This document shows positions 9,787-18,241 of a stretch of 43,474 nucleotides of DNA, one piece after another; positions within the stretch are counted from its first letter, which is position 1; each line of letters opens with the position of its first letter. A program made the position numbers and the translations under genes. The stretch is from Pseudomonadota bacterium (GTDB lineage Bacteria; Pseudomonadota; Gammaproteobacteria; UBA9214), in contig JARFQV010000291.1 in NCBI GenBank assembly GCA_029287615.1, positions 1 to 43,474 of the forward strand, in the 5' to 3' direction. The notes under the pieces were generated by a model. It saw nothing but the letters and a program-made list of their open reading frames with translations, did not search any database and had not been told where the DNA came from.

Positions 9787-10623
9787 ATGACCACAAGATT
9801 TCGTGTTTCCACCATAACAACCAGATTAACGGGCCTGCTGATAGCGGGATACCTGCTCGCAATACCGATAAACGCTATATCAGCCAGCCAGGCGCCAACC
9901 ATCCGGCTGTTCCCGACTACCGTATTGGAAGAAATCAGGCACACAGGCACTGTCGCCAAAGACATGGAGACCGGCCTGCAGGCCGTGATCGTTCGTCTCG
10001 ATGAACAGCAACAACTCTATATCGAGAGCAAATGCGAGGGCAACGAGGGTGATCCGGGCTGCGAGCGCATTGCCAGACAGCTGGGCAAGAGTTACCTGGA
10101 GATGCTGGATATCATGTCGGCAAGCCTGCCGGAGATGGAGGCCGCGGTGAATTCCACCTCATCCAGCCTGGAAAAACGGATCCGCAAGGAGCTGGGTCAC
10201 AAGAAGACCCCCTGGTCCCTGCAGGAACTGCTGCTCAACCAGGAATCGCAACGGGGCAACGGTGAGCGCCCCGCCCTTCGGGGACGCTCCGGCATGCGGC
10301 TGAGTGACCGGTTCAATCAATACTACCAGCTCGTCGCCCGCTCCGGCGGGCAGGTCAACTCCTCTCTTGCCGTAATCGCAGCGGATATCTATCTCGACAT
10401 GCAGGAGACCTCGAGCCTGATCGCCCGTACTCGTGAAGAGATCGGCAGGGCCACCCTGATGGAACAACTCAACCAGTCATTCGGCACGATTACCCCCGAG
10501 ATGCAGGAGGTGGTTGCGGGCGTAAAAGCCATCCTGTTCGGAGAGTCGGAAGAATTCATCCCGATGGCGCCACCGCCCGCCGGCCCGGCGAGCCTCGAAT
10601 ACGAAAGCCCGCTGCAACTCTGA
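9787..10623 (+). CDS. Exported helical protein of unknown function (first gene of the envelope operon)
   Basis: ATG at 9787 followed by a signal-like segment (TGLLIAGYLLAIPINAISASQA); mostly helical, no family recognised. ORF track start 9595 would place the hydrophobic segment internally. Confidence 0.7.
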   Translation: MTTRFRVSTITTRLTGLLIAGYLLAIPINAISASQAPTIRLFPTTVLEEIRHTGTVAKDMETGLQAVIVRLDEQQQLYIESKCEGNEGDPGCERIARQLGKSYLEMLDIMSASLPEMEAAVNSTSSSLEKRIRKELGHKKTPWSLQELLLNQESQRGNGERPALRGRSGMRLSDRFNQYYQLVARSGGQVNSSLAVIAADIYLDMQETSSLIARTREEIGRATLMEQLNQSFGTITPEMQEVVAGVKAILFGESEEFIPMAPPPAGPASLEYESPLQL

Positions 10624-10647: not shown

Positions 10648-11205
10648 ATGAACAGACACCATCGATTCAGGACTACCGGATTGATTGCCGCCGGTGTGAT
10701 GACAGGCATCCTGGCTGCCTGTGGCAGCAATCCACCGCAAGATACCGCTTGCATGCTGCCGGAGGGGCCGAATCTGGACCGCGCCATCAGCCAGTCCCGC
10801 TTCGACCTGAAGACGGGATGTGAACACCGCTTCGACAGTTATTTCAAGCGTCTGCTGAGCATCGCCGAGGGCGATCCAAAACCGGAGAACAAGGCCAGCT
10901 TCAGTGAGTTCCTGATATGGGCCAACGAGGAAGGCCTGCTGAGCAAGCGCCAGGCGAGGGAAACCTACAACCGTTACTTCGGTATCAAATATGTCTCCCT
11001 GATCGGTGATTACAGTGTCTGCACCCAGACCTGTCCGCAGCAGTCCGAAGTAATGCGGGATATGGACAGGGAACTTGCCGACAAGGAACAGGGGTTACTG
11101 AAGATCAGCGCGGATCGGAGAAGTTACCACAGGGCCAGCCGGCTCTACCAGGAGGCCGAACTGGTCCTCGAGGCCACCTGCGAAGCCTGCGGACCTGCCG
11201 AGTAA
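10648..11205 (+). CDS. Cys-rich predicted lipoprotein of unknown function
   Basis: MNRHHRFRTTGLIAAGVMTGILAACGSNPP: lipobox LAAC; further Cys at ...DTACML, KTGCEH, SVCTQTCPQ, EATCEACGPAE-COOH. Start 25 nt after the upstream stop. Confidence 0.8.
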   Translation: MNRHHRFRTTGLIAAGVMTGILAACGSNPPQDTACMLPEGPNLDRAISQSRFDLKTGCEHRFDSYFKRLLSIAEGDPKPENKASFSEFLIWANEEGLLSKRQARETYNRYFGIKYVSLIGDYSVCTQTCPQQSEVMRDMDRELADKEQGLLKISADRRSYHRASRLYQEAELVLEATCEACGPAE

Positions 11206-11211
11206 GCCGGC

Positions 11212-11880
11212 ATGAAAACCCGGGGTGGCAGTGGCTTCTTGTCCGGCATGCTGCTGGGTATGCTCTTCAGCCTCATCTTCGGAGTGCTTGGGTTATACCT
11301 GCTGATTGCCATGGAATTCATCTCGGTATCCGTGGTCGAGGCGCCACGTATTCAGGCATTGACCGAATGGACCCGGTACAACCTGGGGCTTTCGATCCTG
11401 CCCTTTGCAGTGACCATCGGTCTGTATCTCCACAACCTGCAGGCCCTGTCGCGGGGTCTGAGGGACAATCGGCCGCAGGACGAGATCGCCCAGCTGGAGC
11501 AACTGACCGATATATGGATCAGCCTGTTCTTCGGGATCGGGGTTATCTGGACGGCCATCGGTATGCGTAGCGCCCTCCTGCATGCGCTGGGCGAGCCGGA
11601 TTTCACGGGCGTATCCGGTGCCTATGTTGTCCTGCAACGCCTGGTGGAAGGCGGCATCCTCACGGCGCTGACGACCACCATTGCCGGCGGCATCGGCGGC
11701 TACCTGATGCGGGTATTCAAGAGCGCCTGGCTGGGGACCAGATTGAGCCGGTATTACCAGCACCAGGACCGGATCCAGGCAGCCCGTGTAGAGGGACTGC
11801 TCAGTGACATCCGAACCTCCATCAATGATCTTTCCGTCCAATCCATCCCTGCCTCCTGTGAATGGCTGGAGGAACGATGA
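11212..11880 (+). CDS. Polytopic membrane protein resembling MotA/TolQ/ExbB proton channel subunits
   Basis: Three hydrophobic segments with a cytoplasmic-type loop; FFGIGVIWTAIGMRSALLHAL resembles the GLxGTVxGM segment and RLVEGGILTALTTTIAGGIGGYLMRVFKSAW resembles the conserved ALxTTxxGLxxAIP segment of ExbB/TolQ/MotA. Confidence 0.6.
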   Translation: MKTRGGSGFLSGMLLGMLFSLIFGVLGLYLLIAMEFISVSVVEAPRIQALTEWTRYNLGLSILPFAVTIGLYLHNLQALSRGLRDNRPQDEIAQLEQLTDIWISLFFGIGVIWTAIGMRSALLHALGEPDFTGVSGAYVVLQRLVEGGILTALTTTIAGGIGGYLMRVFKSAWLGTRLSRYYQHQDRIQAARVEGLLSDIRTSINDLSVQSIPASCEWLEER

Positions 11881-12872
11881 TCCACCGCCACCACAAGGGG
11901 GCCTACCCCGCATCAAGACCTGGCGGTTGCAGTGAAACAGAATCACTGCAGAGCGATGTCATGCGCTTTATGGCGATCATCGGCCTGTGCCTGACCGCAA
12001 TCTTCGCGCTGATACAGGGTATGCCGTTCCACAGGGTCTCAGATGAAGAGGAATCTCCCGGGGACTCCGCATCCCGGCAGGAGAGCGAATCCCTGCAGAT
12101 CCGTATTCATGAACTGCGAAATGAACTCGATGATCTGAATACGGAAATCGAGGCAAGGCGGCTACAACAGGAACGGGCAAGGCAGGGAATCAAGGCAACC
12201 CGGGTACAAATTTCCTCGCTCACCAGGGAGACAGAACAGATCCGGGAAGAACGGGACAGGCTACGGGACGATCTGGATGACCTGAACCGGCGTCTTGCCG
12301 AAAGCCGCCAGGAACTGCGGAAGATCCGTCAGAAGTCGCGGGAGAAGAACCCAAGCCGGTATGAATCGCAGCAAGGCCTCTCCCGGGAAGCGGTACTGAT
12401 CGATCAGACTGGCGAAGAGGGAAAATCACAGCGACAGGACCGTAAGCGGCAGACCGTACCCGCAGCAGCCGAACCACGGAACGACCAACGCGCAGGAACA
12501 GGATTCACCCTCCGCTTTGCGTCAGCCACGGCACTGAACCGGCTGGTCACCGCAAGGCTTGTGAAGCTGTATGGCTTGCAGGGAAAGACAGCCTGGCGCC
12601 TTTCGCTCCAGGGCAATGCACCGGTCTTTGCCCCGGGTTCGTTCCCCCGTACCTGGCATGAAATGGATCCCGCCACGGTACCACCAGCCTATACCCGGGC
12701 GCTGGATCAGACCACAGACGCCCCGGTTAGCGTGGTTTGGGGTGTACAGCTTACACCCGGGATGGAACAGAACATCAGCAGACTGGCTGGAAAGAGGCGG
12801 GGTGGCACGCTCATCATCGAGAGTGACGGTCAGATCAGGTTACAGACTGCGGATGGCCGGGAGATGAACTGA
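11877..12872 (+). CDS. One-TM protein with periplasmic coiled coil and C-terminal domain (candidate ExbD/TolR/MotB-like partner)
   Basis: ATGA overlap with upstream gene; short N-tail, single TM (SDVMRFMAIIGLCLTAIFALIQ), long heptad-like coil (IRIHELRNELDDLNTEIEARRLQQERARQGIKATRVQISSLTRETEQIREERDRLRDDLDDLNRRLAESRQELRKIRQK), then a globular C-terminal region. Confidence 0.7.
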   Translation: MIHRHHKGAYPASRPGGCSETESLQSDVMRFMAIIGLCLTAIFALIQGMPFHRVSDEEESPGDSASRQESESLQIRIHELRNELDDLNTEIEARRLQQERARQGIKATRVQISSLTRETEQIREERDRLRDDLDDLNRRLAESRQELRKIRQKSREKNPSRYESQQGLSREAVLIDQTGEEGKSQRQDRKRQTVPAAAEPRNDQRAGTGFTLRFASATALNRLVTARLVKLYGLQGKTAWRLSLQGNAPVFAPGSFPRTWHEMDPATVPPAYTRALDQTTDAPVSVVWGVQLTPGMEQNISRLAGKRRGGTLIIESDGQIRLQTADGREMN

Positions 12873-12873
12873 G

Positions 12874-14322
12874 ATGAACAGACCCACAATGCCCCTGTTC
12901 ATGCTGGCACCACTGATCCTGGCCGCGTGTGTCCAGGGCCCGGTACGCAGAATGGAGGATCAGGGTTCTACCCTGCACCAATGGATCGAACAGGAACTGA
13001 CACCCTATCTCGCCCGGCAACTTGGTGAACACCCACGGTTCAGGGGCGAGCCACTCTTGCTGGTCCGGCTGGAGGGATCCGAGCTGTCCCCCGAGATCGA
13101 TGGCCTCACACGGGACATACGAAACCGGATACTGGATGGACTCCTGTCATCCCCGGGCATCCGGCTACCCTGGCAACCACAGCAGCGACGGGAAGAACAC
13201 CATCGTCGACTGCGACAGCTGCGGTGCGGGAAGACCGGCGATGCCCCCTACTTCGTGGGGATTGAAATCCACCGCACCACGGATTCCCGGTTCCGGGTCT
13301 CGATCCGTGCCCTGGACACCCGGGAGAGAGAATGGGTAAGTGGATTTGGAAAAAACTGGTCGGGTCGGCTGACGGCAGGGGAACAGCGCGCACTGCAGGA
13401 GCGGCACAGGGATGAGTCCCTGCGTGGGCTCAGGGTGCTGCCCTTCCACACCGGCCAGATGGACCTGGCCGCCGACTATCTCGCCAATAATCTCGGTTGC
13501 CTGTTGCGCCAGCAGGATGCAGAGGACCTGGTCATCCACGTCGAACCATCGCGGGAGGACAGCACAGGGCTGCATACCCTGCTGAAACTGATCGCCAACA
13601 ACCTGTCCCGCTATCAGGAGGTGCAGATAACGGATACCCGCAAGGATTCGAACTATATCCTGCGCGGCGAGGCACACCTGATCCAGTCCGGTACCTACCA
13701 GGTATGGGTGGTGCTTCATCCAAAAGACTCCGGCGAGCATGTTGCCGGCATGGACACGGCGACCTATATCCACCTGGGACCGCCCGCTGATGAGCGACCG
13801 GCAGGGAGGGCCCTGGCCGAAAGAAGCGGTCATCGACAGCCATCGATCACGAGTATGGAAGTACTCAGACGCAAGACACCTGTACCAGGAGCACAAGACT
13901 GCAATGGAGCAGATCGATTCGATACTGCCGCCAACTGCCCGAGCCTGGAGATGATCGTCGAGGATGCCGAGCAATTGTTTGTTTTTTCGCACAGCGCCAG
14001 GTCCGGCCCCCTGCGTCTGTCTCCGGGATCCTGCCGGCGGCATAGCGGCCCCGGTAATGACCGCAGATCCATGTATACCGTTTATCTTCCGGACAACGAT
14101 CCAGCCGCATCCGGCTGGCCGACGATCTACGCCATAGCCGTCAACGGTCCCGAGTCGAGGGATGCATTCACACGGCACCTGCGGATTCTGCCCGATGCCT
14201 GCAATGAAACACCGCTCACGCGCATGGATGGCGCCAGACTGCAGGGCTGGCTTGATACGCTCGACCGCCTGATTGCCAGTAACCGGAACAGCATCGACTG
14301 GACGGCAAGACGGCTGCCATGA
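12874..14322 (+). CDS. Large predicted lipoprotein of unknown function, C-terminal region weakly DUF4384-like
   Basis: MNRPTMPLFMLAPLILAACVQGP: lipobox LAAC; start 2 nt after the upstream stop; C-terminal region LFVFSHSARSGPLRLSPGSC...TVYLPDNDPAASGWPTIYAIAVNGPES has the layout of DUF4384 segments. Confidence 0.72.
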   Translation: MNRPTMPLFMLAPLILAACVQGPVRRMEDQGSTLHQWIEQELTPYLARQLGEHPRFRGEPLLLVRLEGSELSPEIDGLTRDIRNRILDGLLSSPGIRLPWQPQQRREEHHRRLRQLRCGKTGDAPYFVGIEIHRTTDSRFRVSIRALDTREREWVSGFGKNWSGRLTAGEQRALQERHRDESLRGLRVLPFHTGQMDLAADYLANNLGCLLRQQDAEDLVIHVEPSREDSTGLHTLLKLIANNLSRYQEVQITDTRKDSNYILRGEAHLIQSGTYQVWVVLHPKDSGEHVAGMDTATYIHLGPPADERPAGRALAERSGHRQPSITSMEVLRRKTPVPGAQDCNGADRFDTAANCPSLEMIVEDAEQLFVFSHSARSGPLRLSPGSCRRHSGPGNDRRSMYTVYLPDNDPAASGWPTIYAIAVNGPESRDAFTRHLRILPDACNETPLTRMDGARLQGWLDTLDRLIASNRNSIDWTARRLP

Positions 14323-14335
14323 AGGAGACTGTATC

Positions 14336-14914
14336 ATGATCAGAGCCACGGGTTTCGTCATCGGTGTTTGCCTGATGTCGGTATTGTTTGTGCTACTGGT
14401 CAAACCCGAGACTGCACAATGGTTGTCCCCCTTGCCGGCAACAGAAGTCGCTGACCCATCCGGCAAACCGGCCCGATCAGACGCAGTCCTGTCCAGTCAG
14501 ACTGGAGTACCTCCCCTTTCCGGAGATCCGGTCTCCGGTGTGGACACGCCTCCGGCAGGGAAACAACCTGGCGATACGGCAAAAACCGCGCAGGATGATC
14601 CGTCCGAACCGGATCCTCCGTCCGTAGCGGATAGTGCCCCTGTGGCCGTTACGAATCCGGGCAGAGACCTCGAGGCAGATTCACGGGATTCCATCCACGC
14701 AGCGGCTCACCTCTTCTGGAGCCCCTTCCGGAGCGAATGGGCGGCACAGGGTTTTGCCGAACGCCTGCGCGTGACAACGAGTGTGCCGGTAGAAGTCATC
14801 CGGCTGGAATCCGGGCAATACCGAGTCGGTTTCAGCTACCGTGACGAGGAGGAACGCCTTGCCCTGAAAGAACGGATTGAGGCGATCACGGGACTGGAGC
14901 TGGAATCGCCATGA
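14336..14914 (+). CDS. Membrane-anchored, Pro/Ser/Asp-rich-linker protein with C-terminal SPOR-like domain
   Basis: N-terminal TM (MIRATGFVIGVCLMSVLFVLLV), low-complexity linker, then LFWSPFRSEWAAQGFAERLRVTTSVPVEVIRLESGQYRVGFSYRDEEERLALKERIEAITGLEL, which has the beta-alpha-beta layout of SPOR domains. Confidence 0.65.
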   Translation: MIRATGFVIGVCLMSVLFVLLVKPETAQWLSPLPATEVADPSGKPARSDAVLSSQTGVPPLSGDPVSGVDTPPAGKQPGDTAKTAQDDPSEPDPPSVADSAPVAVTNPGRDLEADSRDSIHAAAHLFWSPFRSEWAAQGFAERLRVTTSVPVEVIRLESGQYRVGFSYRDEEERLALKERIEAITGLELESP

Positions 14915-15828
14915 TTCTGCCAGAACGAATTCCGGGACTAGTCTGCCTTGCACGCTTGCGGGGCGCCGCACACGGTTTGCCAGGTATGCATCAGGCCCTG
15001 GATGGCTATGCTCACAGGGCCAGCAAAGGCAGTATGGCCAAACTGCTCCTGATCGCCCTCTGTGCAACCACACAGCTCATGGCCGGTACCCGTCCGCAGG
15101 CCGACGACCCGGTCCTGGACCGGCAGTGGCAAAGCTACCTGTCTACAGACTCGCGGTCCCCTCCGGCCCTGGATTTCCCCTATGCCAGCTGCTTCAGCGC
15201 TGCGGCTGCCGAACACGATCTGCCGGAGACGCTGTTACTGGCCGTGGCCAGGGGTGAGAGTGATTTCCAACCCGATGCCCGCTCTTCCGCAAACGCCTAT
15301 GGCCTGATGCAGATACTCTGGCCGGGAACGGCGAGGCAACTGGGCATACAACGCCTGTCCCAACTGCTCGACCCTTGCACCAATGTCGAGGCAGGGACAC
15401 GCTATCTGCGGGAACTGCTGGACCGGTACCGGGGCAATCTTCATCGTGCCCTGGCGGCCTATAATTACGGGCCATCCCGGATCCCGGTATCCGGTGGACA
15501 ACTGCCGGAAGGAGCCATCTGGTACAGCGGCTATATCAAGCGGCACCTGGACTATGTACTGCATGGCAACGGTAAAAAGCGGTCTCGCAGCAAGCCATCG
15601 GCCTATCAGTCCGGGGACCGGTTGTTCATCATCCACTTCACGCGCCCGTATCGCGCAGCCGCCTTCGTCGACAGCCTGCAGCCGGAACTGCAGGATATCC
15701 GTCTGGACTGGTTCCGGCGCCCCGAGGGCGGATACGACGTGTTTATGCTCTACACCAGTGAAGCGGAACTTGAGCAGGGACGCCAATTGCTCACGGCAAC
15801 AGGATTCACGCCTGACAGGAAACGATGA
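14911..15828 (+). CDS. Lytic transglycosylase (SLT domain) with C-terminal SPOR-like domain
   Basis: DLPETLLLAVARGESDFQPDARSSANAYGLMQILWPGTARQLGI...ALAAYNYGPSRI: catalytic ES, GLMQ and AYN motifs of family 1 LTs. C-term FIIHFTRPYRAAAFVDSLQPELQDIRLDWFRRPEGGYDVFMLYTSEAELEQGRQLL. Alternative start 15034 gives a clean signal peptide. Confidence 0.88.
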   Translation: MILPERIPGLVCLARLRGAAHGLPGMHQALDGYAHRASKGSMAKLLLIALCATTQLMAGTRPQADDPVLDRQWQSYLSTDSRSPPALDFPYASCFSAAAAEHDLPETLLLAVARGESDFQPDARSSANAYGLMQILWPGTARQLGIQRLSQLLDPCTNVEAGTRYLRELLDRYRGNLHRALAAYNYGPSRIPVSGGQLPEGAIWYSGYIKRHLDYVLHGNGKKRSRSKPSAYQSGDRLFIIHFTRPYRAAAFVDSLQPELQDIRLDWFRRPEGGYDVFMLYTSEAELEQGRQLLTATGFTPDRKR

Positions 15829-16223
15829 ACCGGGCGCACCGAATCCTGATAATCGGCCTGGCGTTTGCAATGACCGGCACCGCCATTGCCGGTGACTTTC
15901 GCGCCTATGCACCGGTCCTGAAAACAGAGCCGATAACCGAAACCGTAGCCCTCCCGGTGCAACGCACAGCCTGCACGGAACCGGCAGAATCCTCTCGTGA
16001 ATTCAGGGAAATGGCGCCAACCATCGGGGAAGATATCCGCAACGAGATCCGCTTATGGGAGCAACACAGATCCTGCCGAAAGATTACACTGAGCCGGTCA
16101 CAGCAACGAATCATCGGCTACCAGGTTACCTACCGGTACCGGGGGCATACCGGCATTACCCGGCTTTCCCATGATCCGGGAGATCACATCCCCATCGATA
16201 TCAGCTTGTCACCCCTTGACTGA
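15825..16223 (+). CDS. Small exported protein, paralogous to flanking regions of the glycine-zipper protein at 23758-24348
   Basis: Signal peptide MNRAHRILIIGLAFAMTGTAIAG; VLKTEPITETVALP and IIGYQVTYRYRGHTGITRLSHDPGDHIPIDISLSPLD match VIRTEPVYETVEYS and LVGYRVEYRYEGQTFVTRTREHPGRYIRIRVNVDPVD in the other protein. Confidence 0.75.
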   Translation: MNRAHRILIIGLAFAMTGTAIAGDFRAYAPVLKTEPITETVALPVQRTACTEPAESSREFREMAPTIGEDIRNEIRLWEQHRSCRKITLSRSQQRIIGYQVTYRYRGHTGITRLSHDPGDHIPIDISLSPLD

Positions 16224-17244: not shown

Positions 17245-17682
17245 ATGTGCAAAACACAGATACTTGTTGCGGAGAGCAGCCGGGCAAAGCTTTTTCTGGC
17301 TGAAACACCGACAGCCGCTCTGATTGAGCTGGAAGATTTCGTGCAACCCGAAGGTCGCCTGCATGAGGGTGATCTCGTGTCAGACGAGCCGGGAAGTGAT
17401 GGCGGTTCCACGGGTCAGGGCAGGCATGTTATCGATGACCGGACAACGGCCAGTCAGATGGCCCAGATCAGCTTCGCCAGGCAGCTGGCAGAACGTCTCG
17501 AAACTGGCAGGAACACTCATGAATTTGATCAGCTCGTGCTTGTCGCGCCGCCGGAATTTCTGGGAAGATTGCGGGATGAACTCGGAGCGACCCTGAACAA
17601 GCTCGTGGTTGAGGAGATCAACAAGAATCTTGTTCATGATTCATCTGATGTAATCCGGAGTTATGTGTCCGTATTACGCTGA
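17245..17682 (+). CDS. Host_attach family protein ('protein required for attachment to host cells')
   Basis: ILVAESSRAKLFLAETP...LIELEDFVQPEGRLHEGDLVSDEPG...ASQMAQISFARQLAERLETGRNTHEFDQLVLVAPPEFLGRLRDEL...VVEEINKNLVH; typical pattern. Confidence 0.85.
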   Translation: MCKTQILVAESSRAKLFLAETPTAALIELEDFVQPEGRLHEGDLVSDEPGSDGGSTGQGRHVIDDRTTASQMAQISFARQLAERLETGRNTHEFDQLVLVAPPEFLGRLRDELGATLNKLVVEEINKNLVHDSSDVIRSYVSVLR

Positions 17683-17706
17683 CCAGTACGCGTTCAGAGG
17701 TATAAT
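17679..17706 (+). promoter_or_regulatory. Candidate sigma70-type promoter for the Hsp20 gene
   Basis: TATAAT at 17701-17706, 16 nt downstream of CTGACC (17679-17684), GAGGGG RBS at 17721, ATG at 17735. Confidence 0.4.
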
Positions 17707-17734
17707 CCAGCCACACAACAGAGGGGTACCAAGC

Positions 17735-18241
17735 ATGGCCAAAAGCACCAAAGAGGGGAAGGGCAATCTCAAGACTGCAGAAAAGTCCACACCGGCAAGG
17801 ACAATGACACCATTCGATGAGATGGAACAAATGTTCAAGCATTTTTTCCCGCAGGGCTGGATGCACCCCATGCGCTGGGAATGGCCGGCATGGGCACCGT
17901 CTGCCGGACAATTCGAGGCCCGAAGCCCCAAGGTCGACATCATCGAGCGGGACAAGGAAATTGTGGTGCGCGCAGAGACACCCGGAGTCGACAAGAAGGA
18001 TCTGGATGTCACGGTGTCGGAAAACAGTGTAACCATCAAGGGAAGTACCAGGGAAGAACACCGGGAGGAAAAGGGTGATTATTACCGCACGGAAATTACC
18101 CAGGGTTCTTTCACACGGACCGTTGCACTACCCTGTGAAGGAAATGCCGAAAAGGCCCGGGCGGAATTCAAGGACGGGATCCTGGAATTGACCATTCCCA
18201 AGGTTACCGCTTCAACACGACACTCCGTCAAGGTCGAATAG
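17735..18241 (+). CDS. Hsp20/alpha-crystallin small heat shock protein
   Basis: SPKVDIIERDKEIVVRAETPGVDKKDLDVTVSENSVTIKGSTREEHREEKGDYYRTEITQGSFTRTVALPCEGNAEKARAEFKDGILELTIPK; ACD domain. Confidence 0.92.
   Translation: MAKSTKEGKGNLKTAEKSTPARTMTPFDEMEQMFKHFFPQGWMHPMRWEWPAWAPSAGQFEARSPKVDIIERDKEIVVRAETPGVDKKDLDVTVSENSVTIKGSTREEHREEKGDYYRTEITQGSFTRTVALPCEGNAEKARAEFKDGILELTIPKVTASTRHSVKVE

Follow-up and report, generated by a model that had tools for sequence, protein, structure and literature searches.

The window, by which we mean the whole 43,474-nucleotide stretch of DNA analysed here, contains two overlapping open reading frames on the + strand, mot (11212-11880) and coil (11877-12872), at the positions and with the motifs that an earlier note on this DNA had recorded. 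Mot is 222 amino acids (aa) long, with four transmembrane (TM) segments and pore motifs like those of MotA, TolQ, and ExbB. Coil has a single TM segment, a long helix in this genome, and a conserved C-terminal alpha/beta domain (residues ~208-323). The ORF call for coil gives 11862/11877 as its start. Homologues begin at the second of these, an ATG that overlaps the mot stop codon as ATGA; 11877 is thus most likely the true start, and Coil would be a 331-aa protein.

The pair belongs to a seven-gene cassette, encoded entirely on the + strand, which is the main finding of this work and was absent from the earlier note. Upstream of mot lie u2 (9787-10623) and u1 (10648-11205). The u2 product, a ~278-aa helical, exported protein with a probable signal peptide, shows the highest conservation in the cassette (62% mean column identity, with C93 and C102 invariant) and matched no family in Pfam or NCBIfam. 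The u1 product is a predicted lipoprotein with a lipobox Cys and six further conserved Cys; C31, C41, C64, C131, C184, and C187 are invariant and C135 is present in at least 90% of homologues. Disulfide formation or metal binding is conceivable for its conserved CxxxC and CxxC motifs. Downstream of coil, lipo (12874-14322) encodes a second predicted lipoprotein with a conserved Cys, and 4 of 23 homologues match DUF4384 (best E 4.5e-10). It is followed by spor1 (14336-14914), encoding a membrane-anchored protein whose C-terminal domain is SPOR-like; Pfam SPOR was matched weakly, by 2 of 19 members (lowest E 0.028, short of the cut-off). The last of the seven genes, slt (14911-15828, with a true start that may lie near 15034 judging from homologues), encodes a lytic transglycosylase with an SLT domain (PF01464, 3.8e-27), in which the catalytic Glu of the ARGES motif, E116, is invariant in the homologue alignment, and a further conserved C-terminal domain. 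Profile searches of the PDB with Coil, lipo, u2, and spor1 returned nothing meaningful. An optional eighth gene, d8 (15825-16223), is present at 14 of 89 loci; its product matches the UmoD-like model NF041435 weakly (E 6e-10, under that model's cut-off), UmoD being a flagellar biogenesis regulator. Farther downstream (17245-18241), a gene for a Host_attach/baeRF family protein overlaps the HSP20 gene after it by a few bases.

Relatives of Mot are encoded at at least 107 genome loci, and this number together with the kept gene order indicates that mot and coil are real genes and not chance reading frames. Among 89 loci compared by phmmer, several of which are incomplete stretches, order-preserving neighbours of mot were u1 at 88, coil at 85, u2 at 84, lipo at 77, slt at 62, and spor1 at 58. 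When only the 61 long stretches are counted (the window included), u2, u1, mot, and coil are present in all 61, lipo in 59, slt in 56, and spor1 in 52, and the genes flanking the cassette differ from stretch to stretch. The carriers, mostly metagenome assemblies, are marine and sediment Gammaproteobacteria (Woeseiaceae, Chromatiales, Ectothiorhodospiraceae, tubeworm endosymbionts, and Motiliproteus) and some Desulfobacterota (Desulfobacterales/Desulfobulbaceae). Distribution is narrow, since the cassette was found in 6 of 369 genomes sampled from the class and in 1 of 399 from the phylum, counting the window's own; the plasmids and phages searched gave no match. Thirteen carriers and the window's genome each encode 4-11 canonical MotA_ExbB (PF01618) proteins, and the cassette is therefore an extra system that replaces neither TolQ nor ExbB. 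One genome (G363) has two Mot copies on different contigs (L160 and L162). At another locus (L022:1119-2750), mot and coil form one 543-aa ORF, which may be a genuine fusion or an artefact of assembly. Although the record is labelled Desulfobacterales, its Mot falls in the gammaproteobacterial clade of the window, which points to misbinning or transfer. The fusion was considered as a template for modelling Mot and Coil jointly and rejected because the mixed alignment placed the Coil TM segment on TM1 of Mot. We found no account of the cassette in the open-access literature, the scope of our search; absence is not thereby proven, and the seven-gene cassette is apparently undescribed.

Mot homologues in the aligned set are 38-64% identical to the window protein, and the two segments that the earlier note had singled out as channel-like, IWTAIGM and ALTTTIAGGIGGYLMRVF, show the strongest conservation in the family. 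Nearly all invariant positions are confined to two helices, in a first block (G108, G110, V111, I112, W113, T114, A115, I116, G117, M118, and R119) and a second (G147, G148, I149, L150, A152, L153, T155, T156, I157, G159, G162, G163, and Y164). T114 and T156, one in each of the two putative pore-lining helices, are invariant in 81 of 81 sequences, so the Thr conservation that the note had set as a test was borne out. Hydropathy analysis places four hydrophobic segments with centres near residues 22, 67, 112, and 155, the charge pattern is compatible with an N-in/C-in topology, and AlphaFold2 predicts helices at 6-33, 45-84, 89-126, and 137-210, the last one long (pLDDT 86.4).

In hhalign comparisons, TM3 and TM4 of Mot fall in register with TM2 and TM3, the pore helices, of TolQ and ExbB from relatives, consistent with the channel-like character proposed for both segments. 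The GVIWTAIGM segment lies on GLxGTVxGI and GGILxALxTTIxG lies on GIxEALxxTAxG, such that T114 is paired with the Thr in GTV and T156 with that in ALxxT. We take T145 and T178 of E. coli TolQ to lie within the motifs that align with Mot T114 and T156. In TolQ, T145 and T178 constitute a polar ring that is contacted by D23 of TolR (PMC12583513; also PMC12905483). The profile alignment itself is only marginally above shuffles: P was 0.0047 (1 of 200 local shuffles scored higher; score 25.98 versus 14.65 for the reversed profile), a broader TolQ/ExbB profile gave P = 0.0082 (6 of 400 shuffles higher), and an unrelated control (A6) gave P = 0.035. Pfam MotA_ExbB was not matched by Mot, with the single exception of an E value of 0.43 in 1 of 39 members, and the Mot profile matched no PDB chain. 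Foldseek searches of the PDB with the Mot model returned no significant match (all E >= 0.16); among the best 50 matches, 17 were ExbB, TolQ, and ZorAB chains, and these had the top probabilities (0.72 for ExbB and 0.82 for ZorAB), interspersed with BAR-domain and other long-helix proteins. Mot bears a loose resemblance to MotA, TolQ, and ExbB, with homology and family membership unproven.

At the N-terminal TM segment of Coil lies the Asp (D27) noted earlier, and its conservation is complete (77 of 77 homologues), as is that of C38 (77 of 77); an Arg three residues after the Asp (R30) is present in 76 of 77, and L24, M29, F31, I34, and L39 are likewise invariant. The note had placed this Asp at the position of the essential Asp of TolR, ExbD, and MotB, a placement that did not hold: by hydropathy, a crude gauge of depth, 10-13 residues separate it from the TM centre, versus 4-6 in ExbD/TolR (n=28) and 5-8 in MotB (n=10) from relatives. 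D27, which is preceded by polar residues and accompanied by the near-invariant Arg at +3, would therefore sit at the cytoplasmic edge of the membrane, shallower than the usual buried position. In the membrane core of Coil the sole invariant polar side chain is that of C38, which is close to the TM centre and shares a helix face with D27, F31, and I34. We found no conserved acidic residue in the membrane core of either Mot or Coil. Coil matched neither ExbD nor MotB_plug in Pfam, so that none of the three family matches anticipated for the pair was obtained, and its TM segment is no more ExbD-like than shuffled sequences (score 10.5 versus a shuffle mean of 10.0, with an ExbD set that included some spurious ORFs). 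Nor was MotB_plug found in the window's genome, which is 92% complete.

AlphaFold2 predicts a helix at residues 20-47 of Coil that holds the TM segment and one continuous helix at 63-183. The charged coil described in the note is present behind its TM segment and Asp, and is 121 residues long instead of the ~90 estimated. Its rigidity is not a trait of the family. Among 72 homologues, in which linker length ranges from 45 to 220 (mean 114), 16-21 have helical, charged linkers and 51-56 have Pro/Ala-rich linkers, the numbers depending on the cut. The helical type occurs in the window's clade, tubeworm symbionts, and Desulfobacterales, and the Pro/Ala-rich type elsewhere; the types are strongly clustered on the Mot tree (seven changes versus 19 in shuffles). 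With linkers of both types in the family, the periplasmic reach of Coil has been kept and rigidity has not. The ~115-residue C-terminal alpha/beta domain, which the note did not mention, is predicted with confidence and matched nothing in the PDB, including TolR/ExbD and OmpA folds.

These data can be read in several ways. The proposal of the earlier note, a canonical proton stator of the TolQR/ExbBD/MotAB type with a rigid coil, agrees with the adjacent A/B-type genes and with the invariant Asp and Thr residues; we consider it improbable given the depth of the Coil Asp, unlike that in ExbD/TolR and MotB, the lack of Pfam and profile matches, the missing coil in most homologues, and a periplasmic domain unmatched to ExbD, TolR, or OmpA. 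A phage-defence stator of the Zorya kind is brought to mind by the ZorAB chains among the Foldseek matches of Mot and is very improbable indeed: PADLOC gave no ZorA, ZorB, or other match apart from coiled-coil noise, there is no nuclease or helicase partner, the partners in the cassette are envelope and peptidoglycan proteins, and plasmids and phages lacked matches. On cassette gene content we rejected both this system and a flagellar stator.

The main alternative is a scaffold that is not energised, in which Mot and Coil merely anchor and organise a complex that cuts peptidoglycan, in the manner of bitopic inner-membrane assembly proteins, and the conserved Thr and Gly residues serve helix packing with no ion flow. 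The membrane core devoid of conserved acids, a Coil Asp at the cytoplasmic edge beside an Arg, the slight excess over shuffles of Mot's similarity to the motor family, and the invariant Gly-rich helices of Mot, which suit tight packing, all fit a scaffold, and we regard it as a substantial possibility, somewhat short of an even chance. Packing alone, however, explains neither the invariance of T114 and T156 in the TolQ register nor the A/B-type gene pairing.

The reading that we favour, at about an even chance, is that Mot and Coil are the ion-driven, stator-like part of an undescribed peptidoglycan-remodelling complex that crosses the envelope, and that they form its inner-membrane module. 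Mot, with four TM segments and an N-in/C-in topology, would oligomerise like MotA, TolQ, and ExbB around a Coil dimer. Coil would span the periplasm by its coiled or Pro-rich linker, bringing its C-terminal domain within reach of the cassette's lytic transglycosylase, its SPOR-like protein, and its lipoproteins. Ion flow, putatively of protons, along a polar Thr ring (T114/T156) might drive a conformational change in Coil, whose motion or transmitted force could position or gate glycan cleavage. An energising role is suggested by the pore-motif register and the architecture of the pair, and control of glycan cleavage by synteny with slt and spor1; cassette content points to a complex that would extend from inner membrane to peptidoglycan and probably as far as the outer membrane. 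What the data show is gene content, synteny, conservation, and predicted folds, whereas oligomerisation, ion flow, transmission of force, and control of the transglycosylase are inferred. A further reading, which we hold to be rather unlikely, is that Mot and Coil constitute a distinct motor lineage in which the cytoplasmic-edge Asp/Arg pair and the mid-membrane C38, roughly level with the Thr ring, replace the buried Asp, and which drives local peptidoglycan cleavage by means of a lytic transglycosylase dedicated to it and a SPOR-like partner.

Envelope motors powered by ions are known from flagella, the Ton and Tol-Pal systems, gliding, type IX secretion, and Zorya, and papers on the motor family name TolQR, ExbBD, MotAB, AglRS, GldLM, and ZorAB as members. 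Mot and Coil share with TolQ-TolR of Tol-Pal an A/B pair of inner-membrane genes, TM Thr residues in register, the company of peptidoglycan-acting proteins and lipoproteins, and an envelope-spanning logic, but Mot has four TM segments and a very short cytoplasmic loop, the Coil Asp is shallower with an Arg at +3, the periplasmic domain is different, and the cassette lacks TolA, TolB, and Pal and has a lytic transglycosylase of its own. As in MotA-MotB, the A subunit has four TM segments in an N-in/C-in arrangement and the B subunit a single TM segment with an N-terminal Asp, whereas Mot lacks the torque-generating cytoplasmic domain (the TM2-TM3 gap is about 25 residues) and Coil lacks the OmpA-like peptidoglycan domain and a match to the plug. 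GldL-GldM is a motor pair that, like Mot and Coil, lacks obvious MotAB sequence homology and has a B subunit with a long periplasmic reach (PMC9389320), but GldL has a key protonatable Glu in TMH2 (PMC8986121) that Mot does not have. Finally, the cassette SLT domain, with its catalytic Glu intact, is shared with the SLT-family lytic transglycosylases of envelope-spanning machines, and differs from these in its linkage, here with a SPOR-like protein and a stator-like pair.

The cassette with its stator-like pair is conserved and apparently undescribed, the family membership of the pair being unproven, and the occurrence of a cell-wall-cutting enzyme alongside such a pair means that it may be a new envelope machine. 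If so, the list of motors would gain one, in sediment bacteria and tubeworm symbionts, that controls cell-wall cleavage directly, and the shifted Asp/Arg pair of Coil would test which residues such motors really need.
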